From positions 1 to 45,396 of the IMG/VR virus record IMGVR_UViG_3300033148_007463: 45,396 nucleotides of DNA. One strand, written 5' to 3'. How positions within the stretch are numbered: the stretch's first letter is position 1; each line of letters begins with the position of its first letter. Shown piece by piece: positions 4,436 to 39,149 of this stretch. The translations under genes and the position numbers were made by a program. Below the pieces are notes generated by a model. The model saw only the letters and a program-made list of their open reading frames with translations, was not told where the DNA came from and did no database searches. Source of the DNA: a virus.

Positions 4436-4457
4436 AAAAATAAAAATAAATAAAAAT

Positions 4458-8853: not shown

Positions 8854-9071
8854 AGATAAAGAAAGTTAAACAAGTAATAGAAGCAAGGTCTCAAGGATCA
8901 AATGAGGCAATTTTATTATTAGAATTTTTAGAATTATTGAAAGCATTAAAAATTCCCTTAGCATTAGTCACAGAGTATAATAAAAGAGGAATTTATGTTG
9001 GATTAGATTATAATTATAAACAACTTAAAGAAAAATTAAAAAAATTTAGAGGTAAAAAATTATTAGGATGA
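8850..9071 (+). CDS. Small basic hypothetical protein, 73 aa
   Basis: The start overlaps the chaperonin stop (ATGA) and the end overlaps the following HNH gene the same way. It has a basic N-terminus, a Leu-rich helix (AILLLEFLELLKALKIPLAL) and a basic C-terminal helix (KQLKEKLKKFRGKK). The Leu-rich helix is rather short and flanked by charges, so it is more likely a packing helix than a membrane segment. Function unknown; coupling suggests expression with the chaperonin. Confidence 0.6.
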   Translation: MKIKKVKQVIEARSQGSNEAILLLEFLELLKALKIPLALVTEYNKRGIYVGLDYNYKQLKEKLKKFRGKKLLG

Positions 9072-9472
9072 AAGATACAAAATTCAAAAAAGGACATAAA
9101 CCCTGGAACAAAGGAATTCCTTGCTCAGATAAAACAAAGGAAAAAATAAAGGCAAAAAATAAAGGAAAAAATATGTCTCCAAAAACAGAATTTAAGAAAG
9201 GACAAATACCTTGGAATAAAGGGAAAAGATATTCACAGATTGAAGGAAAGAAACATTGGAATTGGAAGGGGGGGATTACAAGATATAGGCAAATAATTAT
9301 ACGAGAAGGTATAGAAATGTCTTGTCAAAAGTGTGGTTCTAAAAGAAAAATTCAAATTCATCATAAAGATAAAAATAGAAGTAATAATAATATAAGTAAT
9401 TTACAAGTTCTTTGTTCAGTTTGTCACGCAAATCTACATAAGAATTGGGAGGGAAGATGGGGGAAAAAATAG
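9068..9472 (+). CDS. HNH endonuclease with KGHKPWNKG repeats
   Basis: The N-terminal half carries two copies of a FKKGHKPWNKG-like motif (residues about 6-16 and 39-49), typical of NUMOD3-type DNA-binding repeats of homing endonucleases, plus HWNWKGG. The C-terminal half is an HNH core: CQKCG, IQIHHKDKN, NNISNLQVLC, CHANLH. It overlaps both neighbours by a few bases, so it fits seamlessly into the operon. It closely resembles the other HNH proteins at 1089 and 17515 and probably spread within the genome. Target unknown. Confidence 0.88.
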   Translation: MKDTKFKKGHKPWNKGIPCSDKTKEKIKAKNKGKNMSPKTEFKKGQIPWNKGKRYSQIEGKKHWNWKGGITRYRQIIIREGIEMSCQKCGSKRKIQIHHKDKNRSNNNISNLQVLCSVCHANLHKNWEGRWGKK

Positions 9473-10401
9473 TTTGTTTAATCACAGGAATTTCAGGATT
9501 TGTAGGAAGTCATTTGGCTGAGTATTGTTTATCTAAGGAAGCCGAGGTTCATGGCACAATTAGATGGAGAAGTGATGTTAATAATTTAAAAGAAATTAAT
9601 CATTTACAATTGCATGAATGTGATTTAACAGATGCTTATTCTATTAGAGACATAATTAAAGAAGTTAAACCAGATTTAATTTTTCATTTAGCTGCGCAAT
9701 CTTATGTTAAAGCGAGTTGGACAAATCCTGCCCAAACATTAACTAATAATATAATTGGAGAATTAAATTTACTTGAAGCAGTAAGAAATACAGATTATAG
9801 CCCAAGAATAATGATTGCTGGTTCTTCTGAAGAATATGGTCATACTGAGACTTCACTAAACGAAGATTCCCCCTTGAAACCACTCTCTCCCTATGGAGTG
9901 TCTAAAGTCACTCAGGATCTTCTTGCTCAACAATATGAGAGATCATATGGATTGGATATTGTGGTAACACGAGCATTCAATCACACTGGCCCAAGAAGAG
10001 GGGATGTTTTTGTTTGTTCTTCTTTTGCGAAGCAGATTGCAGAAATAGAAAAAGGAAAACTTCCAGTAATTTATGTAGGAAACTTAGACGCAGAAAGAGA
10101 TTTTACAGATGTTCGAGATGTTGTTAGAGCTTATTGGTTAGCTTTAGAAAAAGGTGAAAAAGGAGAAGTATATAACATCTGTTCTGAGAAAACTTACCCA
10201 ATAAAGAATATACTGAAAAAGATGCTTTTAATGAGTAAAGTTAAAATTGAAGTAAGGAAAGATCCTAAAAGAATGCGTCCAAGCGATTTAAAAGTTTTAG
10301 TTGGAGATTGTTCAAAATTTAAGGAAAAAACAGGATGGAAACCTTCTATAAAAATAGAACAAACTCTTGAAGATTTATTAAATTATTGGAGAGAAAAATG
10401 A
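9457..10401 (+). CDS. NAD(P)-dependent nucleotide-sugar epimerase/dehydratase (SDR), GDP-deoxymannose-type
   Basis: An extended short-chain dehydrogenase of 314 residues: nucleotide loop GISGFVG (11-17), HLAAQSYVKASW (78-88), Ser-Ser-Glu at 123-125 and the catalytic Tyr146/Lys150 (YGVSK). The later NHTGPRRGDVF and VGNLDAERDFTDVRDVVRAY resemble GDP-mannose 4,6-dehydratase and GDP-4-keto-6-deoxymannose reductase. ATG 9457 is chosen over TTG 9445 because GGGAGGGA precedes it. It likely makes or reduces a 6-deoxy-hexose nucleotide in the cytoplasm, opening the sugar operon. Exact substrate cannot be told. Confidence 0.88.
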   Translation: MGEKIVCLITGISGFVGSHLAEYCLSKEAEVHGTIRWRSDVNNLKEINHLQLHECDLTDAYSIRDIIKEVKPDLIFHLAAQSYVKASWTNPAQTLTNNIIGELNLLEAVRNTDYSPRIMIAGSSEEYGHTETSLNEDSPLKPLSPYGVSKVTQDLLAQQYERSYGLDIVVTRAFNHTGPRRGDVFVCSSFAKQIAEIEKGKLPVIYVGNLDAERDFTDVRDVVRAYWLALEKGEKGEVYNICSEKTYPIKNILKKMLLMSKVKIEVRKDPKRMRPSDLKVLVGDCSKFKEKTGWKPSIKIEQTLEDLLNYWREK

Positions 10402-10898
10402 AATTTTCAGATGCAGTTGCAAAAAGATTAAAACAAGAAGTAGATGTTGTATTTGGGATTACAGGTGGAGCAGTTGTTAATTTACTTGATTCAATTCATA
10501 AGTTTGGACCTAAATTAGTAAATATGCACCATGAACAAGCATGCGCTTTTGCGGCAGATGCTTATGCAAGATTAAAAGGATTTGGAGTGTGTATTGGAAC
10601 TTCTGGTCCTGGAGCAACAAATTTAATCACTGGAACTTGTTGTTCTTGGTTTGACTCTATTCCTGTTTTGACTATTGCTGGACAAGTGCCAACATCTCAT
10701 TTAAAACAAACAGATGTTAGACAAAATGGTTTTCAAGAAACAGACACAGTCACATTATTTAGAAGCATAACTAAGCGTGCAAAATATTTGCAATGTATGG
10801 AAGATTTGAATAATTTAATTAAAATAGCGAAAGTGTATAGACCTGGACCCACTTTCTTGGAGTTTTGTGATGACACCCAAAGAACTACAATTAACTGA
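10398..10898 (+). CDS. TPP enzyme, N-terminal (PYR) part, acetolactate-synthase-like
   Basis: The 166-residue product is the pyrimidine-binding domain of a thiamine-diphosphate enzyme: VVFGITGGAVVNLLD, the catalytic Glu46 in HHEQACAFAADAYAR, GTSGPGATNLITG, and a GFQETDTV segment as in acetolactate synthases. It stops where the normal protein would go on into the central domain. The next gene supplies the rest in the +1 frame, overlapping by 29 bp. So the enzyme is either two subunits or frameshifted. Start ATG 10398 overlaps the preceding stop (ATGA). It probably forms a C-C bond or decarboxylates a 2-keto acid in the sugar pathway. Confidence 0.85.
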   Translation: MKFSDAVAKRLKQEVDVVFGITGGAVVNLLDSIHKFGPKLVNMHHEQACAFAADAYARLKGFGVCIGTSGPGATNLITGTCCSWFDSIPVLTIAGQVPTSHLKQTDVRQNGFQETDTVTLFRSITKRAKYLQCMEDLNNLIKIAKVYRPGPTFLEFCDDTQRTTIN

Positions 10899-11952
10899 AT
10901 TAATAAAAGAAGCAAAGAAACCAATCCTAATAATTGGAAATGGTTGTAGAAATAAGAAGATAGTTGAACAACTTGATATGCCTACATTTCTTACTTGGGG
11001 CGCGATGGATGTTTTACCTGATGACCATAAATTAAATTTAAGAGATTTTGGTATTACTTCTAATCGAGCAGCTAATTTTATTCTAAAAGAAGCAGATTTA
11101 ATTATTGCATTAGGCACCCGACTTGATACTCATGAAGTAATGGGAAAATGGAGAACAGGCAAATTAGTGAGTGTAGATATTGATGAAGCAGAAATCCATT
11201 CAGATGCAGATTTGAAAATTTGTATGGATGCTAATAAATTAGTAAATACTATTTTTCCACCAGTTTGGAAAGATTGGCTCAAAAAATGTAAAGAAGTGCT
11301 TTCTTGGTATAAAAATGATACTTTTCCTTATCTCTTCCTGGAAGAATTATCTGAGAAAGCAAAAAATGACGCAGTAATAATTACTGATGCTGGACAAACT
11401 TTAACATGGACTATGCAATCTTGGAAAGTAAAAGAAGGACAAAGACTTTTTTCAGCATTTAATCACTCTCCTATGGGATATGCTTTACCGGCAAGTATTG
11501 GAGCTTGTTTTGCAAAGCCAAATTCTCAGATAATAGCAATTACTGGTGATGGAGGATTTCAAATGAATTTACAAGAATTACAAACAATTAAAGGATATGG
11601 ATTGCCTATTAAAATTTTTGTATTTGATAATAATGGTTATGGAATGATTAAACAAACTATCGCAGATTGGCCTAAGTTTTTGGAAAAAGGCGTAGCTTGT
11701 GAACCTTATATGGAAAATTTAGAGAAAGTTGCAACTTGTTTTGGATTTGGTTATATTGAAATAGAACAGGGAATGAATTATCACCAAGCTTTAGATATGA
11801 TGTTAAAATCTAAATCTCCTTATATTGCCCGGGTTCGAATCACAGACCCTACGAAAATTCAACCTAAACTAAAATTTGGAGATGAGATGACTGACTTAAC
11901 ACCAAAACTAACTCAAGATGAAAAAGATAAAATTATCCAAGCGCTCAAATAG
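10870..11952 (+). CDS. TPP enzyme, central and PP domains (partner of 10398)
   Basis: This 360-residue product continues the acetolactate-synthase-like enzyme: central domain (KKPILIIGNGCRNK, ADLIIALGTRLD) and the diphosphate-binding domain with ITDAGQTLTW, SPMGYALPASIGACF and the GDGGFQMN...FDNNGYG metal/ThDP motif. The ATG at 10870 has a GGAG seven bases upstream (10859-10862), so independent initiation is realistic. Two-gene TPP decarboxylases exist (for example sulfopyruvate decarboxylase), but the split there is between PYR and PP domains without a long middle. Both halves are needed for an active site. Substrate unknown. Confidence 0.85.
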   Translation: MTPKELQLTELIKEAKKPILIIGNGCRNKKIVEQLDMPTFLTWGAMDVLPDDHKLNLRDFGITSNRAANFILKEADLIIALGTRLDTHEVMGKWRTGKLVSVDIDEAEIHSDADLKICMDANKLVNTIFPPVWKDWLKKCKEVLSWYKNDTFPYLFLEELSEKAKNDAVIITDAGQTLTWTMQSWKVKEGQRLFSAFNHSPMGYALPASIGACFAKPNSQIIAITGDGGFQMNLQELQTIKGYGLPIKIFVFDNNGYGMIKQTIADWPKFLEKGVACEPYMENLEKVATCFGFGYIEIEQGMNYHQALDMMLKSKSPYIARVRITDPTKIQPKLKFGDEMTDLTPKLTQDEKDKIIQALK

Positions 11953-12892
11953 ATTAATTGGGCAAGGAATGTTTCAAATAAAAGCAAAAGCTAAAGACCC
12001 AGGACTTTTACATTTTGAAATTGGAGATTCTTGTTTTAATGCACCTAAAAAAGTAAAGCAGGCTTGTATCAAAGCAATTAAGCAAAATCATACTCATTAT
12101 ACAGACCCTTTAGGATTACCAGAATTAAGAAAAGATATTGCTTTGAAACATCAAACTCAACCAGAGAATGTTGCAGTTGTTCCAGCTAATTTTGGAATTT
12201 TTGCTATTTTATCAGTTCTTTGCAATAAGGGAGATAGGATAAATTATCCTATTCCAGGATTTCCAACATATAAGGCAGTTTCAAATTATTTAGGATTAAA
12301 GTATTCTAAAAGTGCAAAAGTTAAAATAATTAATTTCCCAAATAATCCTACTGGAAAAACTTTTTGTGATGAAGAAGGAGAGATTTTAATAATTGATAAA
12401 GCTTATGAAAATCTTAATTATAATTCTTCTTCAAGAAGTTTTACGTATGGCACTAAAATAGAAATACATTCTTTTTCAAAAACTCATGCAATGAGTGGAT
12501 TTAGATTAGGATACATTATTGCACCAAAAGAAATAATTGAAAAGATTGGATTACTTATTGAAACAACTTATTCTTGTCTTCCTGAGTTTATACAATATGC
12601 AGGAATTGAAGCTTTGAAGATTGATGAATATAAAATCAAAGAGCTTAGAGAAAAAAGAGACTTAATGTATGATATTTTAAAAGAACATTATGAAGTGGAA
12701 AAACCAGAGGGGGGAATTTATATTTGGTGTAGATTAAAGAAATCAACTGTTTCTGGAAATGAAGAATTTGAAAGACTTTTGAAAAAAGGGATAGTTGTTT
12801 GTCCTGGAGAAGTCTTTGGAGATAAAAATTATGTTCGTTTTTGCTTTGCGAAGCCAATAGAAGATATTGAAAAATTAGGAGAATTACTATGA
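11918..12892 (+). CDS. PLP-dependent class I/II aminotransferase, compact
   Basis: Fold-type I aminotransferase of 324 residues: substrate loop FEIGDSCFNAP, PGFPTY, FPNNPTG (Asn), LIIDKAYENL (Asp), the PLP lysine in HSFSKTHAMSGFRLGY, and the C-terminal carboxylate-binding Arg in YVRFCFA. Usual length is near 390; about 60 residues are missing from the large domain around KYSKSAKVKIINFP and after NNPTGKTF, yet all catalytic residues remain. It overlaps the TPP gene by 35 bp. Likely adds an amino group to a keto-sugar side product or keto acid made by the neighbours. Confidence 0.85.
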   Translation: MKKIKLSKRSNRLIGQGMFQIKAKAKDPGLLHFEIGDSCFNAPKKVKQACIKAIKQNHTHYTDPLGLPELRKDIALKHQTQPENVAVVPANFGIFAILSVLCNKGDRINYPIPGFPTYKAVSNYLGLKYSKSAKVKIINFPNNPTGKTFCDEEGEILIIDKAYENLNYNSSSRSFTYGTKIEIHSFSKTHAMSGFRLGYIIAPKEIIEKIGLLIETTYSCLPEFIQYAGIEALKIDEYKIKELREKRDLMYDILKEHYEVEKPEGGIYIWCRLKKSTVSGNEEFERLLKKGIVVCPGEVFGDKNYVRFCFAKPIEDIEKLGELL

Positions 12893-13545
12893 GGGTTACA
12901 ATCGTTTATACAGAATCAAATGCACAAATGAAAAGATGTTTAGATAGTTTGAAAAAGTTTTCTCCAGAATTATCAGTTGATTTGTTGAAGGTTGAAAACC
13001 CAAGTGATAAAACAGACCCTTTTATTGAATACAATAAATACTTTAAAACTATGAAAGATGATATTATAATTTGGCATCCAGATATGATTGCTACTGAAAA
13101 TTGGTATCAAAATTTAAAAAAATATTGGAATAATTTTGATGTTATTGGATTGAAATTAATTTATCCAAATAAATTAGTTCATCATTTTGGTGGTGCAATA
13201 AGAGTGAATGGGGTTGGATTTCACCCACATCAATACGCTTTGAATATTGGATTAACAAAACCACAAGAGTGCGCATTTGTAACAGGACCAGGAACAATTA
13301 TAAAGAAGAATGTATTGGATAAAATAGGTGGATATGATCTGCAATTCATTAAAGGATTTTATGGAGATGCTGATTGGTGTCTTAGAGCAAGAAAAGCCGG
13401 CTTCAAAGTTGGTGTAGTGCCGGTTGAAATAATCCATGAAGAACGACAAGGTGAAAGAACTCAAAGACAATCTCAAGAATATCAAATAAAACATCATAAA
13501 ATATTTGTATCTAAACATATGGAATATCTATCAAAATGCAAATAA
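12889..13545 (+). CDS. Family 2-type glycosyltransferase
   Basis: GT-A-like protein of 218 residues: MRVTIVYTESNAQ start, a DIIIWHPDM segment in the place of the DxD motif, TGPGTIIKKNVLDKIGGYD, and the GFYGDADWCLRARKAGFKVGVVPVEIIHEE region typical of rhamnosyl-type GT2 enzymes, where ED/GD-W is in the acceptor site. It overlaps the aminotransferase stop (ATGA). Probably transfers a nucleotide-activated sugar in the cytoplasm. Sugar and acceptor cannot be read from sequence. Confidence 0.8.
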   Translation: MRVTIVYTESNAQMKRCLDSLKKFSPELSVDLLKVENPSDKTDPFIEYNKYFKTMKDDIIIWHPDMIATENWYQNLKKYWNNFDVIGLKLIYPNKLVHHFGGAIRVNGVGFHPHQYALNIGLTKPQECAFVTGPGTIIKKNVLDKIGGYDLQFIKGFYGDADWCLRARKAGFKVGVVPVEIIHEERQGERTQRQSQEYQIKHHKIFVSKHMEYLSKCK

Positions 13546-14411
13546 GCGAACAATTTAATTATGTTGAACTCTTCTTGACATTTAGATGTAATTTTGATTG
13601 TGATTATTGTATTAATGGAAATATAGAGAGAAAAGTAAAAGAGTTAAACTCAGACCAGTGGGCAAAGGCAATTAATTCTTATGATTGGAAAATGCCAGTA
13701 ACTTTAGGCGGAGGAGAGCCAACACTTCACGAAGAATTTTATGAATTACTTGATAAAATAAAACCTGAAGTTAATATAGAATTATTAACAAATTTAACTT
13801 TTGATCCAATAGAATTTATTAAAAAAGTTAAACCTTCAAGATTTACAAAAAAAGAGAATGCTTATAAATCAATTAGGGCAAGCTATCATCCTGCAAAACA
13901 TAATCCTATTACATTAGTTAATAATGCAAAAGTCTTACAAGACAATGGTTTTAAGGTAGGATTATTTGGATTAAATCATCCAGACAACATGAAAGCAAAT
14001 ATGGAGATGGCAGAATTATCAAGAATAAATGGTATCTATTTTTTCATAAAAGATTATCTTGGAGAAAAAGAAGGCCACAAATTTGGGTTCTTGAAGTATC
14101 CATATGCAGTAGATGGTAAATCAAAAATAGCGCTATGCAGAACCAAGAATATCCAAATTGGGCCTGATGGAAATATCTACAAATGTCATAGGGATTTGTA
14201 TAAAGGAAGACATACGCTTGGAAATATTATAGATACTCCACAAATTAAACAGAGATTTAGAAAATGTATAACTTATGGACAATGTAATCCTTGTGATGTT
14301 AAATTAAGAACTAATAGATTTTTAGACACAGGAGATTGTAATGTAGAGATTGTTCCTCAAACAAGTAAAGAAATAAAAAATAAGATGAAAATTTTAGGAA
14401 GAAAACCATGA
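13536..14411 (+). CDS. Radical SAM enzyme with SPASM-like C-terminus
   Basis: CNFDCDYC gives the CxxxCxxC motif (Cys18, 22, 25) that binds the 4Fe-4S cluster and SAM; LGGGEPT follows as the SAM-binding GGE motif. The C-terminal part has CRTKNIQIGPDGNIYKC, then further cysteines (CITYGQCNPC), as in SPASM-type auxiliary cluster domains. Radical SAM enzymes do difficult C-H chemistry on sugars, peptides or lipids. It overlaps the GT2 gene by 10 bp and the next by 4. Together with a second radical SAM at 16425 it suggests unusual modification of the glycan or of a linked group. Confidence 0.88.
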   Translation: MQISEQFNYVELFLTFRCNFDCDYCINGNIERKVKELNSDQWAKAINSYDWKMPVTLGGGEPTLHEEFYELLDKIKPEVNIELLTNLTFDPIEFIKKVKPSRFTKKENAYKSIRASYHPAKHNPITLVNNAKVLQDNGFKVGLFGLNHPDNMKANMEMAELSRINGIYFFIKDYLGEKEGHKFGFLKYPYAVDGKSKIALCRTKNIQIGPDGNIYKCHRDLYKGRHTLGNIIDTPQIKQRFRKCITYGQCNPCDVKLRTNRFLDTGDCNVEIVPQTSKEIKNKMKILGRKP

Positions 14412-15094
14412 AATTACTAACAATTTGTTCAACAAGAATTAGACCAGAATTAGCAAGAAAGATGGTTGATTCATTTAATAAAACAAAAAGTGAAGGAACA
14501 GAAATAATCTTTTATGTTTGGGATGAAGATCCAAAAGTAGAAAAATATAAGGAATTATTAAAAGATGAAAATGTTATTTATGGAAAGAAAAGATTTATGG
14601 GAGAGGTTTTGAATTATGTTACAAGCCTTTATCCAGACGTTCCATATTTCCAAAATATTAATGATGATCATGAATATTTAATTGAAGGTTGGGATAAATT
14701 AATGTTAGAACCACTTGAAAAAAATAAGGGTTGGGGGATTTCTTATTGTCGTGGTGTAGATGCAAAGCATAATCCAAATGCAGAAGTTATGTCTGGAAAG
14801 ATTGTGAGGGCACTTGGATATTATCTTTATCCAAAATTTAGGCAATTTGGATGTGAACCTTTTATTACAGAACTTGGAGAACATTTTAATTTCTTTTTTT
14901 ATATTGAAGGAAATGTAATTGCTCACAATTGCGTAAATATTGGAAAAATGGAACCTGACGCAAATTATCACTTTATTTATGGAGAAGATACACCTCATGG
15001 ATTGAATGTAATGAATGAATGGAAACATACTAAAAAAGAAGAAGATTTGAATAAAATTAAAGGGGCTATGATTAAAGATGGATTTACGTTTTAA
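14408..15094 (+). CDS. Putative GT-A glycosyltransferase
   Basis: A 228-residue protein starting MKLLTICSTRIRPELARKMVDSF, as in GT-A enzymes that begin with a nucleotide-binding strand; INDDHEYL supplies an acidic motif in the place of DxD, and GWDKLMLEPL follows. The C-terminus has NIGKMEPDANYHF and a short helical tail. It is related to the GT2 superfamily rather than to Rossmann GT-B enzymes. Its 5' end overlaps the radical SAM gene (ATGA); its 3' end overlaps the DUF2061 gene. Donor and acceptor unknown. Confidence 0.65.
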   Translation: MKLLTICSTRIRPELARKMVDSFNKTKSEGTEIIFYVWDEDPKVEKYKELLKDENVIYGKKRFMGEVLNYVTSLYPDVPYFQNINDDHEYLIEGWDKLMLEPLEKNKGWGISYCRGVDAKHNPNAEVMSGKIVRALGYYLYPKFRQFGCEPFITELGEHFNFFFYIEGNVIAHNCVNIGKMEPDANYHFIYGEDTPHGLNVMNEWKHTKKEEDLNKIKGAMIKDGFTF

Positions 15095-15455
15095 AAGTGT
15101 GCTTAAAAGTTTAATTTGGAGAATGTGTGGAATTATAATCTTAGCAGCAGTAACTTACTTTTACACACGATCGTGGATTACTACCAGCTTAGTAACAGTA
15201 ATTCACCATGTAATTTTTCTTTTTGTGTTTTATTTTCATGAGAGGATTTGGTTTAAATTTAAGAACCCAATAGGAATAAAAAGAAAATTAGCAAAGATGT
15301 TTACGTATGAAACTCTTTGTGGAAACATAATTTTGGGAATAATAACTTATTTAATAACAGGAAGTTGGAAAGTTATGACTGCAATCACCTTAACTTATAT
15401 TGGAATTAAACATATCGCTTATGTGATTAATGAATTTATATGGAAAACACAGTAG
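15078..15455 (+). CDS. DUF2061 membrane protein
   Basis: About 125 residues with four hydrophobic segments arranged as two similar halves: LKSLIWRMCGIIILAAVTYF...HERIWFKF and FTYETLCGNIILGIITYL...NEFIW. DUF2061 is such a duplicated small membrane domain often found beside sulfate- or sugar-transfer genes. The 5' end overlaps the glycosyltransferase and the 3' end overlaps the cytidylyltransferase, so it is probably a membrane partner of one of them. Molecular role is not established for the family. Confidence 0.78.
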   Translation: MDLRFKSVLKSLIWRMCGIIILAAVTYFYTRSWITTSLVTVIHHVIFLFVFYFHERIWFKFKNPIGIKRKLAKMFTYETLCGNIILGIITYLITGSWKVMTAITLTYIGIKHIAYVINEFIWKTQ

Positions 15456-15814
15456 TCTATGCTTATGTAGTTGCAGATTTATTGCACACAGGACATATTT
15501 TATATTTAGAAAATGCAAAAGCATTAGGAGATAAATTAATAGTTGGTGTCCTTACAGATGAAGCAACTATGGAGAAAAAACTAAAACCAATTCTTTCTTT
15601 TAGTGAAAGAATGAGATTAATTAAAGCACTTAAATGTGTTGATTGTGTTGTTGCCCAGACAGAATATTCACCAGAAAGAAATATTAAAACAATAAATCCA
15701 GATATTATTGTTGAAAGCGAAAGTCACGAGGTAAATACTGATAAAAGAATAATTATTTTCCCTTATTATCCAGAACAAAGTTCAACTAAAATTAAAGAGA
15801 AACTTAAAAAATGA
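15440..15814 (+). CDS. Cytidylyltransferase-like nucleotidyltransferase
   Basis: 124 residues with the small nucleotidyltransferase signature: VADLLHTGHILYLENAKALGD (HxGH, residues about 16-19), LIVGVLTDEATMEKK, PILSFSERMRLIKALKCVDCVV, and a late SSTKIKEKL where family members have the ISST(T)xI motif. Relatives are glycerol-3-phosphate, ethanolamine-phosphate and phosphonate cytidylyltransferases, and archaeal FAD synthase. Next to LicD it probably makes a CDP- or CMP-activated alcohol or phosphonate for transfer to a glycan. Substrate not known. Confidence 0.82.
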   Translation: MENTVVYAYVVADLLHTGHILYLENAKALGDKLIVGVLTDEATMEKKLKPILSFSERMRLIKALKCVDCVVAQTEYSPERNIKTINPDIIVESESHEVNTDKRIIIFPYYPEQSSTKIKEKLKK

Positions 15815-16428
15815 AAGATACATTAATTAAATTTGTAGAAATTTGTGATAAATTAGAAATACAATATTTTTTACACTTAGGAACTTGTTTAGGTTTATAT
15901 AGAGATGGGAACTTTTTTCCTAATGATGATTTAGACGTTGGAGTAATTTGTAATAAAGAAAAATTAAAGGAATTATTTAAAACAATTAAAGAAGCAAAAT
16001 TTAGGGAAGGAGATGTTTTCATAAATCCTGGATGTGAATTAAATTATCATTGGTGGAGTGAAGATAATGTTCTTTTAGATATACATTTTCAATTTTTAAA
16101 AGAAGAAGAGAAATTCTTAGAATCTTTTGGGACGGTAAGAGTTTGGGATAGAGAATTTTTCATTCCTTATCCTGTTTGGGATTATCTTGAATTAGAATAT
16201 AATAAATTGATTGGAGAAAGGGGAGGAGATTGGAGAAAAAAATCTCAAGAAAAAAGCAGACCTCTTGCGAAAGCAAATGAAATGTCTCCTAAAAAATCAC
16301 TAAAAATGGACATAGAAGAATATTATAATCATAAAGGAATAAGATATGAATGGGATAATGTAAAAAATCTTTATACTGATGAAACAGGAAAAATGCTATT
16401 AAAACCAAAAGGAGAAGTTACTAAATGA
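15811..16428 (+). CDS. LicD-family phosphotransferase
   Basis: The N-terminal core LHLGTCLGLYRDGNFFPNDDLDVGV (residues about 22-45) matches LicD/fukutin-type proteins: GT-x-LG-x-R-G-F-P-DD-D-D, a polymerase-beta-like metal site. These transfer phosphocholine or similar phospho groups from a CDP or CMP donor onto glycans. A WWSEDNVLLDIHF strand adds a third acidic residue. It overlaps the cytidylyltransferase stop (ATGA), so donor synthesis and transfer are coupled. Length (205) is typical. Group transferred is unknown. Confidence 0.85.
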   Translation: MKDTLIKFVEICDKLEIQYFLHLGTCLGLYRDGNFFPNDDLDVGVICNKEKLKELFKTIKEAKFREGDVFINPGCELNYHWWSEDNVLLDIHFQFLKEEEKFLESFGTVRVWDREFFIPYPVWDYLELEYNKLIGERGGDWRKKSQEKSRPLAKANEMSPKKSLKMDIEEYYNHKGIRYEWDNVKNLYTDETGKMLLKPKGEVTK

Positions 16429-17513
16429 AAAAAATAGATTCAGATTATAGAATGGATGATACCAAATTACTTTGGCACATGGATAGAGTTAAAAAGATTT
16501 TTAAAGGAGAAAAGATAGCGCCAATTATGATAGATATGGGGATAACTAAAGCTTGTAATATTAGATGTGTTTATTGTTATAGATTAAATCAAGAACCAAG
16601 TGAGGAATATATTGAACGAGATGCTTTACTTGATTTGGTTAGCACAGCAAAAGACATTGGATTAAAAGCTATTGGGTTTGTTGGAGATGGGGAACCGACT
16701 GTTAATCCTCATATGCATGAAGCATTAGAAAAAGCAACTTGTGATATGGCAATTTCTACAAATGGGATTTTGCTTGATACTGATGAAAAGAGGATAAATG
16801 TTTTAAAGAACTGCACATGGATGAGATTTAATCTTTCTGCAGGAACAAAAGAAGGTTATAAAAAAATTCACAGTGTAGATAAATTTGAAGTAGTTTGTGA
16901 GAATATAAAAGAAATGGTTAGACTAAAAAAGTTTCATGGATATAAATGTGAGATAGGATTACAAAGTGTTTATGTTCCAGGCCTTATGGATAAAGAAATG
17001 ATTGAAGAAGCCAAATTAGCAGTTAAATTAGGTGTAGATTATTTTGTAATAAAACAATGTTCTCTACCTGATGAAAATAAAAGAGTTGGAGATATTGGAT
17101 TTAATGTTGATGAGTATGATTCTGAAAAAGTAAAAGAAGTTTTAGAAACTTGTGAAAATTTTTCTACTGAAAATACAAAAATAATACCTAAATGGAATTT
17201 AATGCAACAGAAAGGAAAAAGGCCTTATGATGGCTGCCCTGGAATTCCATTACTTTTACAAATCTCTGGAAATGGTGATGTTTATCCTTGTGGCCAGATG
17301 TTTCAAAAAGAAAAATATAAAGATTATTTTATTGGGAATATCCATGATACACCTTTTAGGGAGATGATTAAAACAGATCGTTATTGGGAAGTAATGGAAA
17401 AGATGAAAACTTTTGATGTTCATAAAGATTGCACAGGCGCATGCAGGCAAGATAAAATTAATGAATTTTGTTATAATTATCTAAATAAACCTCGCGGGAT
17501 TAACTTTATTTAA
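16425..17513 (+). CDS. Radical SAM/SPASM enzyme
   Basis: CNIRCVYC (Cys44, 48, 51) binds the radical SAM cluster; FVGDGEPT is the GGE-like motif; AISTNGILL and LSAGTKEGYKKIH follow the usual barrel order. The C-terminus (GCPGIPLLLQISGNGDVYPCGQMF, then CTGACR and C) is a SPASM-type domain with auxiliary cluster cysteines. Length 362. It overlaps the LicD stop. The 'DGEP' instead of 'GGEP' is a mild variant. Acts on an unknown substrate in the same glycan pathway, or on a ribosomal peptide, which I could not find nearby. Confidence 0.88.
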   Translation: MKKIDSDYRMDDTKLLWHMDRVKKIFKGEKIAPIMIDMGITKACNIRCVYCYRLNQEPSEEYIERDALLDLVSTAKDIGLKAIGFVGDGEPTVNPHMHEALEKATCDMAISTNGILLDTDEKRINVLKNCTWMRFNLSAGTKEGYKKIHSVDKFEVVCENIKEMVRLKKFHGYKCEIGLQSVYVPGLMDKEMIEEAKLAVKLGVDYFVIKQCSLPDENKRVGDIGFNVDEYDSEKVKEVLETCENFSTENTKIIPKWNLMQQKGKRPYDGCPGIPLLLQISGNGDVYPCGQMFQKEKYKDYFIGNIHDTPFREMIKTDRYWEVMEKMKTFDVHKDCTGACRQDKINEFCYNYLNKPRGINFI

Positions 17514-17514
17514 A

Positions 17515-17961
17515 ATGAGAAGAAATAGTTTTTTACAAAAGGGAATGCATATAGGGAAAGAGACTGAATTCAAGAAAGGACATAAACCTTGGACAACCGG
17601 AAAAACAAAGAAAGATTACCCCCAATTAACTAATAAAAGCAGATTAGGACAACATAATTCTAAAGAATCTGAAGAAAAAAGAATTAAGAGTTTGAAAAAC
17701 ACAGTAAAGAAAAGAGGTTATAGAACTGAAGAAAATAGTAGGGCAAGATTATCTGTTGAAATCAAATTATGGAGATTAGCAGTTTTTGAAAGAGATAAAT
17801 TTACTTGTCAAAAATGTGGAAAAAAAGGAGTTTATATTGAAGCGCACCATATTAAGAATTGGGCAAAATTTCCTAAATTAAGATTTAAAATTTCTAATGG
17901 AAAAACCTTATGTAAAAGTTGTCATAAAAAGACAGATAATTATAAAGGGAGAGGAAGATGA
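17515..17961 (+). CDS. HNH endonuclease with KGHKPWTTG motif
   Basis: The N-terminus has FKKGHKPWTTGK, similar to the NUMOD3-like repeats of the 9068 protein; the C-terminus is an HNH core with CQKCGKKGVYIEAHHIKNW, NGKTLCKSCHKK. The start follows the preceding stop by one base and the end overlaps the next nuclease gene. It interrupts the sugar operon without disturbing it, as the other HNH genes do. Confidence 0.87.
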   Translation: MRRNSFLQKGMHIGKETEFKKGHKPWTTGKTKKDYPQLTNKSRLGQHNSKESEEKRIKSLKNTVKKRGYRTEENSRARLSVEIKLWRLAVFERDKFTCQKCGKKGVYIEAHHIKNWAKFPKLRFKISNGKTLCKSCHKKTDNYKGRGR

Positions 17962-18557
17962 TAAACAAAAAAAAGCAAGGCAAAAGAAATAAACAAGCTG
18001 GAGCTCGTTTTGAATTAAAAGTCAGAAAAGATTTAGAAAGTAAAGGCTGGATTGTTTCTAAGTGGATGAATAATGTTGAATGGCAAGAACATCGAATGAT
18101 TGGATATACTCAAACAATAACTTTTGAAATGAATAAAAAACCTTCTAAGAAATATGAAGTTCCAAAAGGAGTGATAATGACAGAAGAGGGCCCAAAGGCA
18201 GGAAAATTAATCCCAGCAAAACATAAATTTAGAGGAATAGGAATACCTATGGCAATTGGAACAGGATTTCCAGATTTTATTGCTTTTGTAAATTATTCAA
18301 ATGTGGAAGAAAATGAGTTGACTTATCCAATGGTTTTGAGAGCAAAAGCAACTGTGGATGAAAAAGAAGTTATTAGTTTTTCAGAAAAAAATGTTGAGAT
18401 TATAGGAGTTGAAGTAAAATCTAATGGATACCTCGATAAAAAAGAAAAAGAAAAATGCAAATGGTTATTAGATAATAATATATTTAGTAAGATATTAATA
18501 GCTAAGAAAGGGAAAAGGAGAGGAGAAATAATTTATGAAGAATGGAAGGCTATATAA
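17958..18557 (+). CDS. PD-(D/E)XK nuclease, Holliday-junction-resolvase or VRR-NUC-like
   Basis: The N-terminal basic part KKKQGKRNKQAGARFELKVRKDLESKGW resembles archaeal Hjc (Glu in the first helix); later GTGFPDFIAF supplies the Asp and VIGVEVKSNGYL the E-x-K motif, in the right order for a PD-(D/E)XK site. The extra segment between helix and FPDF is about 70 residues. Hjc cuts four-way junctions; VRR-NUC relatives cut flaps. With the RuvB-like ATPase it could resolve viral recombination intermediates or trim packaged DNA. Overlaps HNH and cold-shock genes. Confidence 0.7.
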   Translation: MINKKKQGKRNKQAGARFELKVRKDLESKGWIVSKWMNNVEWQEHRMIGYTQTITFEMNKKPSKKYEVPKGVIMTEEGPKAGKLIPAKHKFRGIGIPMAIGTGFPDFIAFVNYSNVEENELTYPMVLRAKATVDEKEVISFSEKNVEIIGVEVKSNGYLDKKEKEKCKWLLDNNIFSKILIAKKGKRRGEIIYEEWKAI

Positions 18558-18739
18558 AATTTTATAATCCTATGAAGGGATTTGGATTTATTAAAGGTGA
18601 AGAGAAAGATTATTTTTTTCACATGACTGATGTAGATAAAGAAGATCTGAATTCAATCGATAAAGAAGTAAAAGTAGAGTTTGAAACAGAAGCACATCCT
18701 AAAGGAGAAAAAGCAGTAAATATAAAAATAATAAGATGA
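18542..18739 (+). CDS. Cold-shock domain protein
   Basis: A 65-residue single cold-shock domain: GYIKFYNPMKGFGFIKGEE (RNP1 KGFGFI) and DYFFHMTDV (RNP2-like), followed by DKEVKVEFETEAHPKGEKAVNIKII. Such OB-fold proteins bind single-stranded RNA or DNA and act as RNA chaperones. The start overlaps the nuclease gene by 16 bp and its stop overlaps the next glycosyltransferase. CspA proteins are common in bacteria and less so in archaea, so this may be acquired. Confidence 0.9.
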   Translation: MEGYIKFYNPMKGFGFIKGEEKDYFFHMTDVDKEDLNSIDKEVKVEFETEAHPKGEKAVNIKIIR

Positions 18740-19842
18740 AAATAATATTTAATGGAGATTGTTTTAGCCCAACAGGAATCTCAACAGCAAATAGAGAAAT
18801 AGTAAAAGCCTTAGTTAAAGCTGGTGCAGAAGTTCAATGCACTGATGTTTGGCAAGATAAATATGATTGTAATAAAGGATTAGAATATTTAAATAAACCA
18901 ATAAATGCAAATTCTCCTGGAATTAAAACTATATTTGCTTCTTATCCTAATGTCTGGCATGGAGGACATGGTGAATTAATCGCACACCCAATCCATGAAG
19001 GCACAAGAATATTCCCAAATTGGATACCAGCAATCAATCAATGTAAGAAAGCTTTTGTTTGTTCAGAAGCAAATAGAAATTTATACAAATGGAATGATAT
19101 TGTAATTCCTATTAAAGTAATTAATTATGGAACAAATCCAGAAATTTATAAACCATTAGAATTAAATAAAATGAGTCTGGGGAAACTTGCAGATGAAGCA
19201 GGGCTCTTTGGTAAGGATAAAAAATTTACATTTCTTTCAGTTAATTCCTGGAGTGGTGAAGCCGGAGACAGAAAAGGAACAGATTTACTTCTGAAAGCTT
19301 TTGATGAAGAATTTAAGCCAGGCGAAGCAAAATTAATTATGAAGATAGGAACTTTTTGGCAAGATAAAAGAGATTACAAACAATTAGCAGAAAAACTATT
19401 GGGCCATAAAAATCCAGATATTATATTTGATACTGAATATAAAAGTGAAGAGGACTTAGTAAAATTTTATCAAGAAGCAGATTGTTTTGTGGCGCCTACA
19501 AAGGGAGAAGGTTTTGGTATGACTTTAATAAATGCTTTAGCTTGTGGATTACCTTTGATTGTTACTAAAGATGTAAATTCAGGCCACATGGATTTTTGTA
19601 AGGGCAGAGAGAGTGTTTTGTGGATTGATGCACCGGAAGTAGAACAGGGAGATCCACGATTTTATTGGGCAGGAAATATGTTAGCAAAACCAGATTTCAA
19701 TTCAATTAAAAAACAAATGAGATATGCTTTTGAACATCCTGAATTGAAAGAGAAAGCGCTAATAGATTCAGAATTTATTAGAAAGAATTTTACTTGGGAT
19801 ATTACAGCTAAAAAAATATTGGAGTATCTAAATGAACCCTGA
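18736..19842 (+). CDS. GT-B (family 4-like) glycosyltransferase
   Basis: 368 residues: N-terminal Rossmann part beginning MKIIFNGDCFSPTGISTANR, then a C-terminal nucleotide-sugar domain with FTFLSVNSWSGEAGDRKGTDLLLKAF and the E-x7-E-like APTKGEGFGMTLINALACGLPLIVT motif. Retaining GT4 enzymes of this type build cell-surface glycans. Start overlaps the cold-shock gene (ATGA); end overlaps the methyltransferase gene. Sugar unknown. Confidence 0.88.
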   Translation: MKIIFNGDCFSPTGISTANREIVKALVKAGAEVQCTDVWQDKYDCNKGLEYLNKPINANSPGIKTIFASYPNVWHGGHGELIAHPIHEGTRIFPNWIPAINQCKKAFVCSEANRNLYKWNDIVIPIKVINYGTNPEIYKPLELNKMSLGKLADEAGLFGKDKKFTFLSVNSWSGEAGDRKGTDLLLKAFDEEFKPGEAKLIMKIGTFWQDKRDYKQLAEKLLGHKNPDIIFDTEYKSEEDLVKFYQEADCFVAPTKGEGFGMTLINALACGLPLIVTKDVNSGHMDFCKGRESVLWIDAPEVEQGDPRFYWAGNMLAKPDFNSIKKQMRYAFEHPELKEKALIDSEFIRKNFTWDITAKKILEYLNEP

Positions 19843-20527
19843 ACAATTAAAAGAAATGAATAGCATCCAATGGTGGCACACTATGCCTTTAGATGGAGTT
19901 ATGACTCCTGGAAGAGATTTTACTCAAGATAAATTAATTGCTATCAAAATGCCTAAAGATTTATCTGGGAAAAAAGTTATTGATGTAGGTGCTTGGGATG
20001 GTTTCTTTTCTTTTGAAGCTGAAAGAAGAAATGCCAAATCTGTTTTAGCAGTAGACACAGTAATGTGGAAAGAACACCCAACCTTTAATGTGCAAAAAAA
20101 TAGAAAGGTAATGCATACAGGAAAAAAAGGATTTAATTTTGCTCATAAAATTCTTAAATCTAAAGTAAATTCTGAGGAAATAGAAGTAATGGATTTAAGA
20201 ACAACAAATTCTATTTATGGAAAATTTGATTTAGTTTTATGTTTAGGAATACTTTATCATATGGAAGACCCTTTAGGAATGTGCAAGGTAATGTATGATA
20301 TTTGTAAAAAAGGTGGATTGTTAATCCTTGAAACCCACATAGATATGAATAAGATAGATTATCCTGTTATGGCTTTTTATCCAGGAAAGGAATGTAATAA
20401 TGATGCTGGAACTTGGTGGGGGCCTAACGCTCGATGTGTAGAAGCTATGCTAAAAGTTGCAGGATTTAGTGAGGTTCAAAGAGTTTTTGAAAATAAAAAT
20501 AGGGTGGTGTTCCATGCAAGAAAATGA
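19832..20527 (+). CDS. CmoB-like SAM-dependent methyltransferase
   Basis: 231 residues: WWHTMPLDGVMTPGRD, then motif I VIDVGAWDGFFSFEAERRNAKSVLAVD and FDLVLCLGILYHMEDPL. This matches the Methyltransf_9/DUF1698 group related to CmoB, which in bacteria carboxymethylates tRNA. In sugar clusters such proteins usually modify glycans. The 'GAWDG' loop replaces the usual GxGxG, a known variant. It overlaps the GT4 gene. Whether it uses SAM or carboxy-SAM cannot be told. Confidence 0.82.
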   Translation: MNPEQLKEMNSIQWWHTMPLDGVMTPGRDFTQDKLIAIKMPKDLSGKKVIDVGAWDGFFSFEAERRNAKSVLAVDTVMWKEHPTFNVQKNRKVMHTGKKGFNFAHKILKSKVNSEEIEVMDLRTTNSIYGKFDLVLCLGILYHMEDPLGMCKVMYDICKKGGLLILETHIDMNKIDYPVMAFYPGKECNNDAGTWWGPNARCVEAMLKVAGFSEVQRVFENKNRVVFHARK

Positions 20528-20601
20528 AATGTAAAAAATGTGGGGTTTTTTTAGGAAAGAATCATGATTGTAAAAAAGTTAAGCATGGAGGGAATTTTTG
20601 A
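20524..20601 (+). CDS. Tiny zinc-knuckle protein, 25 aa
   Basis: ATG at 20524 overlaps the methyltransferase stop (ATGA). The product, MKCKKCGVFLGKNHDCKKV and six more residues, has CKKC plus a His and Cys (H14, C16), a possible zinc knuckle. Its last codons carry the ribosome site (GGAGGGA) of the next gene. Possibly real, possibly a coupling ORF. Confidence 0.4.
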   Translation: MKCKKCGVFLGKNHDCKKVKHGGNF

Positions 20602-20603
20602 AA

Positions 20604-21839
20604 ATGCCAGAAGATAAAATCCGTATTCTTTCGTTTGGAGATAATCCAAAAATGAGCACAGGGTATGGTTGTGTCTGGGATAACCTTTTAACCAGATGGG
20701 CTAAACTTAAACCTAACTGGGAGTTTATGCACGTTGGTTGGCAGAATACTGACAGGCCACACAAAAGAGCAGAAGGATATACAATGCTTCCACGATCAAA
20801 AAATGGTTGGGGATTTGATATAGTTGCAAATTATTTAATGAAGCACAAACCAGACATTTTGATTACCTTAGCAGATATAGGAAAACAATCAGGATTTATT
20901 CCAGGAGTTAATAATGCAAGAAAATCTGGTTGGAAAGGAAAATGGATTATGTATTCTCCTATTGATTGTCATCAGTGGGCATTGCATTGGGATGAAATAC
21001 TAATGGCTTCTGATGTGAATGTGGCTATGTCTAATTTTGGTGGAGAACTATTTAAAAGTAGAAATGTTCCAAATGTAAAAATAATTCCTCATGGTGTTGA
21101 TATAAATAAATATAAACCTCTTGAAGATAGAGAACAATTAAGAACCAGATTTGGAATTAATAATAAATTTGTTTTAGGGTTTGTTGGCAGAAATCAAGTA
21201 AGAAAGATGATAGCTTATATGATGAGAGGTTTTGCTAATTTTGCTAAAGGAAAAGATGATGTAGTTCTTTTATTACATACAGATAATATGCCCCCCGGTG
21301 GTGAAGGCAGGGGTTGGGCAATAGATGGCCTTGTTTATAAATATGAAAAAGAAACTGGACAGTGTTTATTTGAAAGCGAAAAAGTAAGGCTTACTGAAAC
21401 TAACATGGATGTTTTAACAAGACAAGGAATTCAACCAGAAAATCTAAATGACATTTATAATTTGATGAATATGCTTGTTTATGCTACAGGGGGAGAAGGT
21501 TTTGGACTTCCAGCAATTGAATGTCAAAGTGCAGGGGTTCCTATTTTAATGTCTGACAACTCAACAGGGCCAGAATTAGCAGGGAAATCTGGAGAGTTAA
21601 TAGATATGCTTAGAGATAAATATGGAAGGATTGTTGGGATAATAGGAACTAATGGTGTAGAAAATCTGGTGCCTGATGATAGACACATAACTTTGCTCTT
21701 AGAAAAATATTATGCTGATTGGAAGGGAGATAAAGAAACATTAAAAGAGATGTCAAAGAAAAGTAGAGAATTTGCATTAACTTATGATTGGGACATTATC
21801 GCTAAACAATGGCTTAAATTATTTGAAGAAAATGTATAA
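20604..21839 (+). CDS. GT-B glycosyltransferase (family 4-like), second copy
   Basis: About 411 residues. A Rossmann start (IRILSFGDNPKMSTGYGCVW) leads to a C-terminal domain with VLGFVGRNQVRKM and the YATGGEGFGLPAIECQSAGVPILMS donor site (E-x7-E). Between them PPGGEGRGWAIDGL is an insertion. It ends by overlapping the terminase start (TAATG). It is the fourth glycosyltransferase of the cassette. ATG 20604 is preferred to TTG 20598 because of the GGAGGGA spacing, but both are possible. Confidence 0.87.
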   Translation: MPEDKIRILSFGDNPKMSTGYGCVWDNLLTRWAKLKPNWEFMHVGWQNTDRPHKRAEGYTMLPRSKNGWGFDIVANYLMKHKPDILITLADIGKQSGFIPGVNNARKSGWKGKWIMYSPIDCHQWALHWDEILMASDVNVAMSNFGGELFKSRNVPNVKIIPHGVDINKYKPLEDREQLRTRFGINNKFVLGFVGRNQVRKMIAYMMRGFANFAKGKDDVVLLLHTDNMPPGGEGRGWAIDGLVYKYEKETGQCLFESEKVRLTETNMDVLTRQGIQPENLNDIYNLMNMLVYATGGEGFGLPAIECQSAGVPILMSDNSTGPELAGKSGELIDMLRDKYGRIVGIIGTNGVENLVPDDRHITLLLEKYYADWKGDKETLKEMSKKSREFALTYDWDIIAKQWLKLFEENV

Positions 21840-23239
21840 TGAAATCTATAGAAGAATGTTTAAAGGGAACGAACTATAAGGTTGAACAATTTTTAGCTGA
21901 ATGTTATTTAGATTATCTCTTTTTTGCAAAGCATGTTTTAGGATTTGATATTGCTGATTATCATAGGGAATGGTATGAGTTAGCTGAAAAATATTCAAGA
22001 CTTTGTATTGAAGCTTTTAGGGGAAGTGGAAAAACCTATTTTTTTTCAGGATACTTTCTTTGGAAAGCGATCTTTCAAGGGCCAAGAGAAACATTAATAG
22101 TTTCATTTAGAGAAGGGCAAGCAAAGAAAGTTTTAAAGATAGTTAGAAATATGATTTTAGATAATGAATTTCTTAAACAATTTGCACCTGACTCAAGAGA
22201 ACAAATTTGGAGAGCAACAGAATTAGAATTAAATAATGGAAGTTTATTTTTATGTAAACCTTATAATGAAGGGATTAGAACCTGGCATCCAGATGATATT
22301 TTATTAGATGAGATTGGGGAGTATGAAGATAAGTCTATTTATTGGACAGCAGTTTTAGGTGCAATCCATGTTAAGATGGGAAGGGTTATTGCTATAGGAA
22401 CTCCAAAGAGTGGAAGTGATTTACTTGCAGAATTAAAAGAGAATGAGGAATATTTTTATAATGAGTATCCAGTAGAGAAAGATGGAAAACCTTTATGGCC
22501 TCAGAAATATTCTATGTTAAACTATGATACAGATACCCTGTCAAGTATTCCTAAGATAAAAAGAGATTTAGGAGAATTACCATTTATGCAGGAGTATATG
22601 TTAATCCCATTAAGCTCTGCAAATTCTTTATTCCCAATTGAATTAACCCATCAGGCATTAGCAAATAAAGAAGGCTTTTTACCTTTTGGCAGAAAAGATG
22701 AAAGATATTATATTGGATATGATATTGCGAGAACTCCTAAAGGAGATTATACGGTGATGACAGTTATTGGAGTAAATGCTAATGGAAAAAGATTAGTCAA
22801 AGGATTAAGATTTAGAGATACATTTGAAGAACAATTAAAAAAGTTTAGAAGATTGTATAACGATTTTAAACCAGTAAAATGTTTAGTAGATGGGACAGGA
22901 ATAGGAGATCAACAATCAAGAGATATAGAATTGGAATTTGCAGGAATAGAAATTGTAAAATTTACTTATGAGATAAAATTAAATATGCTTACAGATTTAA
23001 GAAGGGAATTTGAGAACTTAAATCTCTCGCTTCCTAATGCTCATGATGTAGCCTATGCTTTTACTCAACAATTAATAAAAGAACTTAGTGAGATCGCTTT
23101 GAAAACAGATTTAAGGGTTGGGCAAACAACAAGACAGAAATTTCATTCAGGGAAATATGATGATTGTGCAATTTCACTTGCGCTTGCGAATAGAGCTTCC
23201 CAAGATTTGTATGGTAAGGTTAGTATTCGAGGAATATAG
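21839..23239 (+). CDS. Terminase large subunit
   Basis: 466 residues. Walker A RGSGKT (61-66), Walker B ILLDEIGE (DE at 157-158), coupling motif IGTPKSG, then an RNase-H-type nuclease with GYDIAR (D295), LVDGTG (D351) and KYDDCAIS (D441/442). This is the ATP-driven motor and headful or site nuclease that packs viral DNA into the prohead through the portal. It starts the packaging and structural region, at the last base of the glycosyltransferase gene. Very sure. Confidence 0.96.
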   Translation: MKSIEECLKGTNYKVEQFLAECYLDYLFFAKHVLGFDIADYHREWYELAEKYSRLCIEAFRGSGKTYFFSGYFLWKAIFQGPRETLIVSFREGQAKKVLKIVRNMILDNEFLKQFAPDSREQIWRATELELNNGSLFLCKPYNEGIRTWHPDDILLDEIGEYEDKSIYWTAVLGAIHVKMGRVIAIGTPKSGSDLLAELKENEEYFYNEYPVEKDGKPLWPQKYSMLNYDTDTLSSIPKIKRDLGELPFMQEYMLIPLSSANSLFPIELTHQALANKEGFLPFGRKDERYYIGYDIARTPKGDYTVMTVIGVNANGKRLVKGLRFRDTFEEQLKKFRRLYNDFKPVKCLVDGTGIGDQQSRDIELEFAGIEIVKFTYEIKLNMLTDLRREFENLNLSLPNAHDVAYAFTQQLIKELSEIALKTDLRVGQTTRQKFHSGKYDDCAISLALANRASQDLYGKVSIRGI

Positions 23240-39135: not shown

Positions 39136-39149
39136 TTCCATGTTCTCAA

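Follow-up and report, generated by a model that had tools for sequence, protein, structure and literature searches.

An exchangeable cassette of predicted glycan enzymes with a radical SAM pair and a thiamine diphosphate enzyme in a tailed virus probably associated with DPANN archaea

Gene content and variation of the cassette

We analysed a 45,396-base virus record from IMG/VR, referred to in its full length as the window, and within it a run of glycan-enzyme genes that lies between a chaperonin gene and the gene for the terminase large subunit (TerL). The run extends from 9445 to 21839, is encoded entirely on the plus strand and accounts for 12.4 of 45.4 kb (27%), and its last gene overlaps TerL by 1 nt. 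An initial annotation, made by a model from the sequence, had described a co-directional sugar cassette filling about one quarter of the genome directly ahead of the terminase, and we arrived at the same layout. With the open reading frame (ORF) starts used in this analysis, 15 of the 17 gene junctions overlap; nearly all had been given as 4-bp overlaps, a length that we found at only six, the rest measuring 1 to 35 bp.

The first enzyme gene (9445-10401) encodes a short-chain dehydrogenase/reductase (SDR) acting on nucleotide sugars, of the GDP-mannose dehydratase/4-keto-6-deoxyhexose reductase type (Pfam GDP_Man_Dehyd, 304 bits). It carries GxxGxxG, YxxxK and SSEEYG motifs, and its best PDB match was 2pk3, a GDP-6-deoxy-D-lyxo-4-hexulose reductase, followed by 7us5, a GDP-heptose 4,6-dehydratase. 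Downstream lies a YerE/acetolactate-synthase-like carboligase dependent on thiamine diphosphate (ThDP) and divided between two ORFs: an N-terminal (PYR) subunit (10386-10898; TPP_enzyme_N, E 2e-32) and a subunit with the central and PP domains (10867-11952, starting at GTG 10867 or ATG 10870; TPP_enzyme_M and _C). A pyridoxal phosphate class I/II aminotransferase follows (11918-12892; Aminotran_1_2, E 2e-30), with a lysine motif, SFSKTHAMSGFRLG, seen by reading the sequence. Pfam matches confirmed all three assignments of the initial annotation, including the division of the ThDP enzyme.

The four glycosyltransferases that had been proposed are present. GTA1 (12889-13545), a GT-A family-2-like enzyme, gave a weak match to Glyco_tranf_2_3 (E 4e-4, below the cut-off). 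GTA2 (14408-15094), for which no Pfam family match was obtained, has an invariant DDH motif and was assigned from the GT-A fold of its AlphaFold model only (pLDDT 94.4), which Foldseek matched to the fucosyltransferase WrtF (E 1e-9) and to SpsA. The other two, GT4a (18736-19842; Glycos_transf_1) and GT4b (20598-21839; Glyco_trans_1_4), are GT4 enzymes of a conserved base layer; GT4b has the EX7E motif, and in GT4a, as read from the sequence, Asn replaces its second Glu. Between them lies an S-adenosylmethionine (SAM) methyltransferase (19832-20527; Methyltransf_9). Its class had been correctly recognised, but the label CmoB-like is weak, since NCBIfam TIGR04290 scores higher (88.9 against 68.6 bits) and both scores fall under the cut-off. 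Both proteins annotated as radical SAM/SPASM enzymes, rSAM1 (13536-14411) and rSAM2 (16425-17513), match Pfam Radical_SAM, and a SPASM match was obtained for rSAM2 only.

Across seven viruses TerL is 69-90% identical, and all of them have glycan genes upstream of it. GT4b adjoins TerL in every one of these relatives, and GT4a and the methyltransferase are found in most; between these base-layer genes and the chaperonin, gene content varies. The left border of the variable island is a thermosome-like group II chaperonin of 465 amino acids (7456-8853, plus strand; Cpn60_TCP1, E 3e-97), found in the same position in L020, L021, L022, L103, L115, L105 and L005, and the right border is TerL (21839-23239, plus strand; Terminase_6N/6C). 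Compared with the relative G001, the flanking genes of the window are 82-90% identical (chaperonin 87%, SDR 89%, TerL 90%), against 39-65% for the cassette genes; genes for the ThDP enzyme, the aminotransferase and DUF2061 are missing from G001, and a split transketolase and small methyltransferases stand in their place. G008 (L103) is an overall more distant virus (TerL 61%), in which the whole cassette is collinear with that of the window at 55-74% amino acid identity, but with LicD at 39%. Unrelated glycan genes occupy the same slot in L021, L005 and L006. The cassette is a modular island exchanged wholesale between close relatives, and by analogy its variation resembles that of loci for capsules or O-antigens.

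Because the full gene order is conserved in G008, the cassette is not an unrelated mosaic, an objection that had been raised together with the initial annotation. The companion objection, dead catalytic residues, does not hold either for the motifs checked: the SDR, the two ThDP subunits, rSAM1 and rSAM2, the cytidylyltransferase (CyT), GT4b and the methyltransferase all retain their catalytic motifs, and the sequences of the aminotransferase and LicD, on direct reading, show theirs as well. The idea of one self-contained pathway to one activated group did not stand. We distinguish at least three layers instead: a GT4a-methyltransferase-GT4b base, a branching module of rSAM1, rSAM2 and the ThDP enzyme (module A), and a phospho module of CyT, DUF2061 and LicD (module B). 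Modules A and B each occur without the other in viral loci.

The chaperonin of the window is shorter than cellular thermosome subunits (about 540-570 amino acids) and only about 29-36% identical to them; against annotated phage records it gave short partial matches only.

The predicted branching and phospho modules

Profile scans with rSAM2, rSAM1 and CyT yielded 16, 21 and 26 viral loci, respectively. An rSAM2 relative is encoded at 28 loci, and 26 of these also hold a ThDP enzyme gene, mostly no more than 2 kb away; the other two, L104 and L007, are truncated contigs, and among untruncated loci the count is 26 of 26. By comparison, none of 18 viral CyT loci without rSAM2 had a ThDP enzyme (Fisher p 7e-11 against the rSAM2 loci), although the loci are related by descent, L157-L160 being near-identical, and neither this p value nor the counts describe independent events. 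Cassettes of the same lineage without the close rSAM2 family likewise had none (0/3), nor did the loci with rSAM1 only, L162 (truncated), L167 and L169. A cellular origin was considered and set aside: in one scan of a genome collection, a single clear cellular relative emerged, L023 from a Nitrospirae metagenome-assembled genome (MAG), at 38% identity, all other rSAM2 matches reaching 33% or less. L023 (JAGVOT010000107.1) carries rSAM1, two rSAM2 paralogs, a split transketolase, an SDR, and glycosyltransferase and membrane-protein genes, and is a possible bacterial counterpart of module A.

The ThDP enzymes beside the radical SAM genes are, by Pfam, of three types. YerE/acetolactate-synthase-like enzymes occur in the window, L103, L115 and L156-L160. 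Split transketolases are found in L020, L022, L111, L112, L102, L109, L113, L116, L161, L168 and L023, with the C half in L154, and E1-like alpha/beta pairs in L105, L106, L110, L114, L150, L163, L165 and L166. According to a 2025 review, exactly three ThDP superfamilies are known to take ketone acceptors, including in branched-sugar formation, namely decarboxylase/YerE-like, alphaKADH2 (E1-type) and transketolase enzymes; the role of transketolases in ketone branching is only proposed, and those enzymes are split-gene (PMC12247030). The viral types belong to the same three superfamilies, so that all three are linked here to one partner set.

The larger ThDP subunit of the window had as its top PDB match 8rph (139.8 bits, against 131.5 for acetolactate synthase AHAS I), which is JanthE, a YerE-like ketone carboligase (PMC12188165). 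The catalytic Glu is present in HHEQA of the N-terminal subunit, and the GDG-x-NN motif as GDGG...NN in the other. The acceptor-carboxylate Arg of the acetolactate synthase DDR motif, which we take to be Arabidopsis R377, is not conserved: the window has GTRLDTH where AHAS I has GARFDDR, with His replacing Arg. GTRLDTH is also found in L103, and L115 has GTKLDTH. The window pair is a candidate YerE-like ketone carboligase. The split lies at a domain boundary and is shared with L103 (72-74% identity, similar overlap); in L115 the enzyme is unsplit, with 550 amino acids and a longer linker. We rejected a sequencing error as the cause, since the same split with both halves kept occurs in L103 and an unsplit form exists in L115. 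A programmed frameshift is not needed, as the second ORF has an ATG start of its own in the window and in L103. Within the TerL lineage, the aminotransferase accompanies the YerE-like version only (window, L103 and L115). This pattern is in line with an acetyl branch being transaminated, as the review states for the C2 branches of kibdelomycin (PMC12247030).

Both radical SAM proteins have the CX3CX2C cluster motif. In rSAM1, which stays beside GTA1 in relatives, a C-terminal cysteine cluster is conserved (C201/217/244/250/253/268) without a Pfam SPASM match; rSAM2 has a SPASM-type C-terminal domain, and its cysteines are conserved across 18 sequences. When the AlphaFold model of rSAM2 (pLDDT 87.9) was searched with Foldseek, the top matches were to DesII (E 2e-15, 16-17% identity), and BlsE was within the top 20. 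DesII and BlsE share with rSAM2 the cluster motif and C-terminal auxiliary cysteines. The likeness comes from the predicted fold and is fold-level only, because no sequence relation is detectable. Module A gives a testable function to these virus-enriched radical SAM families.

Known pathways that branch ketosugars with ThDP enzymes (yersiniose, avilamycin with AviB1/B2, kibdelomycin, and miharamycin with its split transketolase) draw on the same three superfamilies, also with split transketolases, and likewise have SDR, glycosyltransferase and methyltransferase genes nearby. Older work described AviB1/AviB2 and YerE as the only two mechanisms then known to form two-carbon branches (PMC4425429), and the avilamycin cluster also holds a radical SAM epimerase, AviX12 (PMC8234114). 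Those pathways, however, belong to bacterial O-antigen or antibiotic clusters, whereas the viral loci combine a single conserved radical SAM pair with one or another of the three types. The viral transketolases and E1-like enzymes are, in addition, short and made of two subunits. In Campylobacter phages CP220 and CPt10, tailed phages with an interchangeable radical SAM block for which the authors proposed a metabolic role (PMC2853527), exchange as a unit between close relatives is a feature shared with the window cassette. Glycosyltransferase-like genes and a ThDP-fold protein lie a few kb from that block, and one protein is distantly related to rSAM2 (27% over 207 residues). The phage block differs in having five radical SAM genes and a glycine amidinotransferase, absent from the window cassette, and a bacterial host; LicD, cytidylyltransferase and a GT4 pair are not annotated there. 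Phages with swappable radical SAM modules and ThDP sugar branching in bacteria were thus already known. What is new is that viruses carry a single radical SAM pair coupled to any of three ThDP families that stand in for one another, the link between DUF2061 and CyT, and the probable occurrence of module A in DPANN viruses. The initial annotation had considered the gene combination undescribed; in the open literature library that we searched, which misses subscription journals, we found no archaeal virus or DPANN genome described with this gene set.

The three genes of module B were all confirmed by Pfam: DUF2061, a membrane protein with two transmembrane-like segments (15078-15455); CyT, of 124 amino acids and TagD/ECT/Fom1-CyT type, with HxGH and SSTK motifs (15440-15814; CTP_transf_like); and a LicD-family phosphotransferase (15811-16428; 29.8 bits against a cut-off of 22.6) with invariant D39/D40/D42. 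The best PDB matches of the CyT profile were 5x3d, 5x9q, the ethanolamine-phosphate cytidylyltransferase 3elb and TagD, and include the Fom1 domain. A phosphonate pathway was considered on account of the resemblance to Fom1 and rejected, as no phosphoenolpyruvate (PEP) mutase was found in 15 related viruses. Many viral loci, whether or not they contain module A, have DUF2061 next to CyT, and the two form a single polypeptide in three viral proteins, L180 (258 amino acids; 9620-10396), L182 (255; 9623-10390) and L194 (272; 9599-10417). This adjacency and fusion argue that DUF2061 is coupled to CDP activation, and the fusion is a first functional lead for DUF2061, a domain that four papers in the literature library name, once apiece. 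Most CyT/DUF2061 loci also contain a LicD-like gene. Judged by its family, LicD should add a phospho-substituent, and the adjoining CyT is consistent with transfer of a phospho-alcohol from a CDP-activated donor. A cytidylyltransferase beside a LicD-family transferase is likewise seen in LicC/LicD-type phosphocholine and FKRP/FKTN-type ribitol-phosphate transfer; the viral system differs in that its CyT is of the TagD/ECT/Fom1 type and coupled or fused to DUF2061, and its LicD is very diverged.

A proposed branched glycan and competing readings

The reading that we favour, with somewhat better than even confidence, is that of a serotype-like exchangeable cassette, carried by a DPANN-associated tailed virus, that would put a C2-branched, phospho-decorated glycan on virions or on the surface of the host. 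Gene content, motif presence, module co-occurrence, swapping, fusion and nearest structures were observed; the substrates, step order, acceptor and role we infer. GT4a, the methyltransferase and GT4b, whose genes travel with the terminase, would start or cap the glycan. The SDR, rSAM2 with its DesII-like fold, or both may introduce a ketone into a nucleotide sugar or a residue of the glycan, and to this ketone the YerE-like split ThDP enzyme would add a two-carbon unit from the decarboxylation of pyruvate. The aminotransferase could convert the acetyl branch to an aminoethyl branch and, together with methyltransferases, elaborate the branched sugar, with rSAM1 contributing a further radical step. 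GTA1 and GTA2 would attach this sugar to the glycan started or capped by GT4a and GT4b. In the phospho layer, CyT and its membrane partner DUF2061 may make a CDP-activated small alcohol or polyol, from which LicD would transfer the phospho-group. The finished glycan would most likely form a coat on proteins of the virion or the host surface.

More tentatively, and at somewhat less than even confidence, we propose that a conserved two-enzyme radical SAM core, found in DPANN viruses and unrelated tailed viruses, prepares a ketosugar; that three unrelated ThDP carboligases are plugged in interchangeably to vary the C2 branch, in a manner like antigen switching; and that DUF2061 is a dedicated membrane partner of CyT feeding LicD. 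The findings suggest that branched, phospho-decorated sugars, which are otherwise known from O-antigens and antibiotics of bacteria, are also made by viruses, whose strains exchange the cassettes. For DPANN viruses they point to a glycan coat that serves in recognition or escape.

Several observations, besides the shared descent of the loci, weigh against the branched-glycan reading. The unsplit ThDP enzyme of L115 scores slightly higher against E. coli acetolactate synthase I than against JanthE (239.5 versus 226.8 bits). A search of the PDB with the rSAM2 profile did not recover DesII and returned NifB-type proteins only (E about 1e-4). We recognised no virus-encoded ketoreductase for the branch. 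Finally, no flippase or lipid-carrier transferase was recognised among the cassette genes, which implies that the glycan would be assembled on proteins in the cytoplasm or depend on host carriers.

Two LamG proteins (28206-30434 and 39132-41123), each with an N-terminal hydrophobic segment, are candidate acceptors. Each contains 24 N-X-S/T sequons, against 11.2 and 7.9 expected in shuffled sequences, and 0 of 500 shuffles reached that number; from this excess of about 2-3-fold, surface glycoproteins plausibly exist in this virus. The first of them has no homolog in G001 or G008 and would for that reason be a variable surface or adhesion protein. Next to the second, positions 41124-42521 encode a Ser/Thr-rich protein (24% S+T) with imperfect repeats, SETDTLSLSDSVSI. 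It matches no Pfam family and is a candidate fibre or acceptor of O-glycosylation.

The same chemistry could be directed at the host cell rather than the virion, remodelling the archaeal envelope so that other viruses are excluded, a role proposed in certain phages for genes of surface glycans. We regard this as a real possibility, though on the less probable side. DUF2061 is a membrane protein coupled to CyT, and the sequon-rich LamG proteins with their hydrophobic segments could be displayed on the host; yet in every close relative the island lies beside the genes for the terminase and head, the cassette proteins except DUF2061 look soluble, and a polymerase, like the lipid-carrier transferase and flippase, was not recognised.

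A linear CDP-amino-alcohol pathway, the phosphate analogue of the aminoethylphosphonate (AEP)/phosphonate pathway, is unlikely. Here the ThDP enzyme would decarboxylate a phosphorylated 2-oxoacid, the aminotransferase would give phosphoethanolamine or a similar compound, CyT would form the CDP derivative and LicD would transfer it. The four genes do occur together in the window, L103 and L115, and the CyT matches to Fom1 and ethanolamine-phosphate cytidylyltransferase fit such a product. The distribution of the genes speaks otherwise: the window CyT is 65-72% identical to those of transketolase-type cassettes without the aminotransferase, against 53-55% for those with the ThDP enzyme and aminotransferase; L105 has a ThDP enzyme and both radical SAM genes without CyT and LicD; the 18 CyT loci above lack a ThDP enzyme; and PEP mutase is absent from the 15 related viruses.

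That the radical SAM/SPASM proteins instead mature a peptide (a ribosomally synthesized and post-translationally modified peptide), with the glycosyltransferases forming a separate island, appears very improbable. Maturases of peptides and cofactors (W_rSAM, MoaA and AhbC) are among the sequence models nearest to rSAM2, but its nearest structure is DesII, the radical SAM genes are interleaved with glycosyltransferases, we recognised no short ORF for a precursor among the genes that are conserved, and the link to ThDP enzymes would have no meaning. Least credible of all is that the sugars and phospho-groups serve to hypermodify the bases of virion DNA. Glycosyltransferases, radical SAM and pyridoxal phosphate enzymes are generally known to act on DNA bases in some phages, but the cassette enzymes are of nucleotide-sugar, CDP-alcohol and LicD types, and no base-activating enzyme, such as a base kinase or a thymidylate-synthase-like or TET/JBP protein, appeared in the Pfam scan of window proteins.

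The virus, its probable host and neighbouring features

The glycan biosynthesis and decoration cassette had been attributed to an archaeal virus, and a probable archaeal (DPANN-associated) tailed virus is what our results support. In a Pfam scan, TerL, the portal and an HK97-type capsid protein marked the virus as of the tailed type, and no near-identical phage DNA was found. Both ends of the window fall within one 15-nt tandem repeat. L135, a 9.9-kb contig binned in a DPANN genome (from the phylum of a Woesearchaeota MAG), has the gene order of window positions 37.6-44.9 kb followed by 2.0-3.2 kb, with 59-81% amino acid identity for most genes. Since the ends share the repeat and L135 is collinear across them, the genome is probably circularly closed, and the binning of L135 associates a close relative of the virus with DPANN archaea. 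A search with the 20-kb structural region matched 17 of 371 genomes from the DPANN phylum of L135 (E about 1e-7 or better) and 0 of 200 Thermoproteota genomes, a contrast to which composition may contribute and in which MAG binning is not proof of host. The virus probably infects DPANN archaea.

Although the enzymes listed in the initial annotation are real, it left out three non-pathway genes within the interval: an HNH endonuclease insert (17515-17961; Pfam HNH), of which an 80% identical copy occupies the same place in L115; p199 (17958-18557), a nuclease-like protein with a PD-(D/E)XK-like VEVK motif seen by eye and no Pfam match; and a cold-shock domain protein (18542-18739; Pfam CSD). 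With homologs in L020, L021, L006, L111 and L105, p199 is a lineage gene and not cassette-specific. A further insert outside the pathway, a homing-type HNH endonuclease (9068-9472, plus strand; HNH_3 and HNH), precedes the SDR. HNH genes are also found at 1089-1733 and 1831-2082; some of the four share an N-terminal repeat (KFKKGHKPWNKG-like), and such genes occupy different positions in relatives. These endonucleases may drive the mobility of the cassette.

The portal gene (23518-25170, minus strand) is reversed relative to the terminase and capsid genes in the window, L004 and L010. It is co-directional in the remaining relatives with a portal match, indicating a clade-specific inversion of a core head gene. 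An AT-rich tandem array of TATATTACTTTACTAC units (4362-4441) lies in a strand-switch region upstream of a RuvB-like ATPase gene and is a possible origin or regulatory region.

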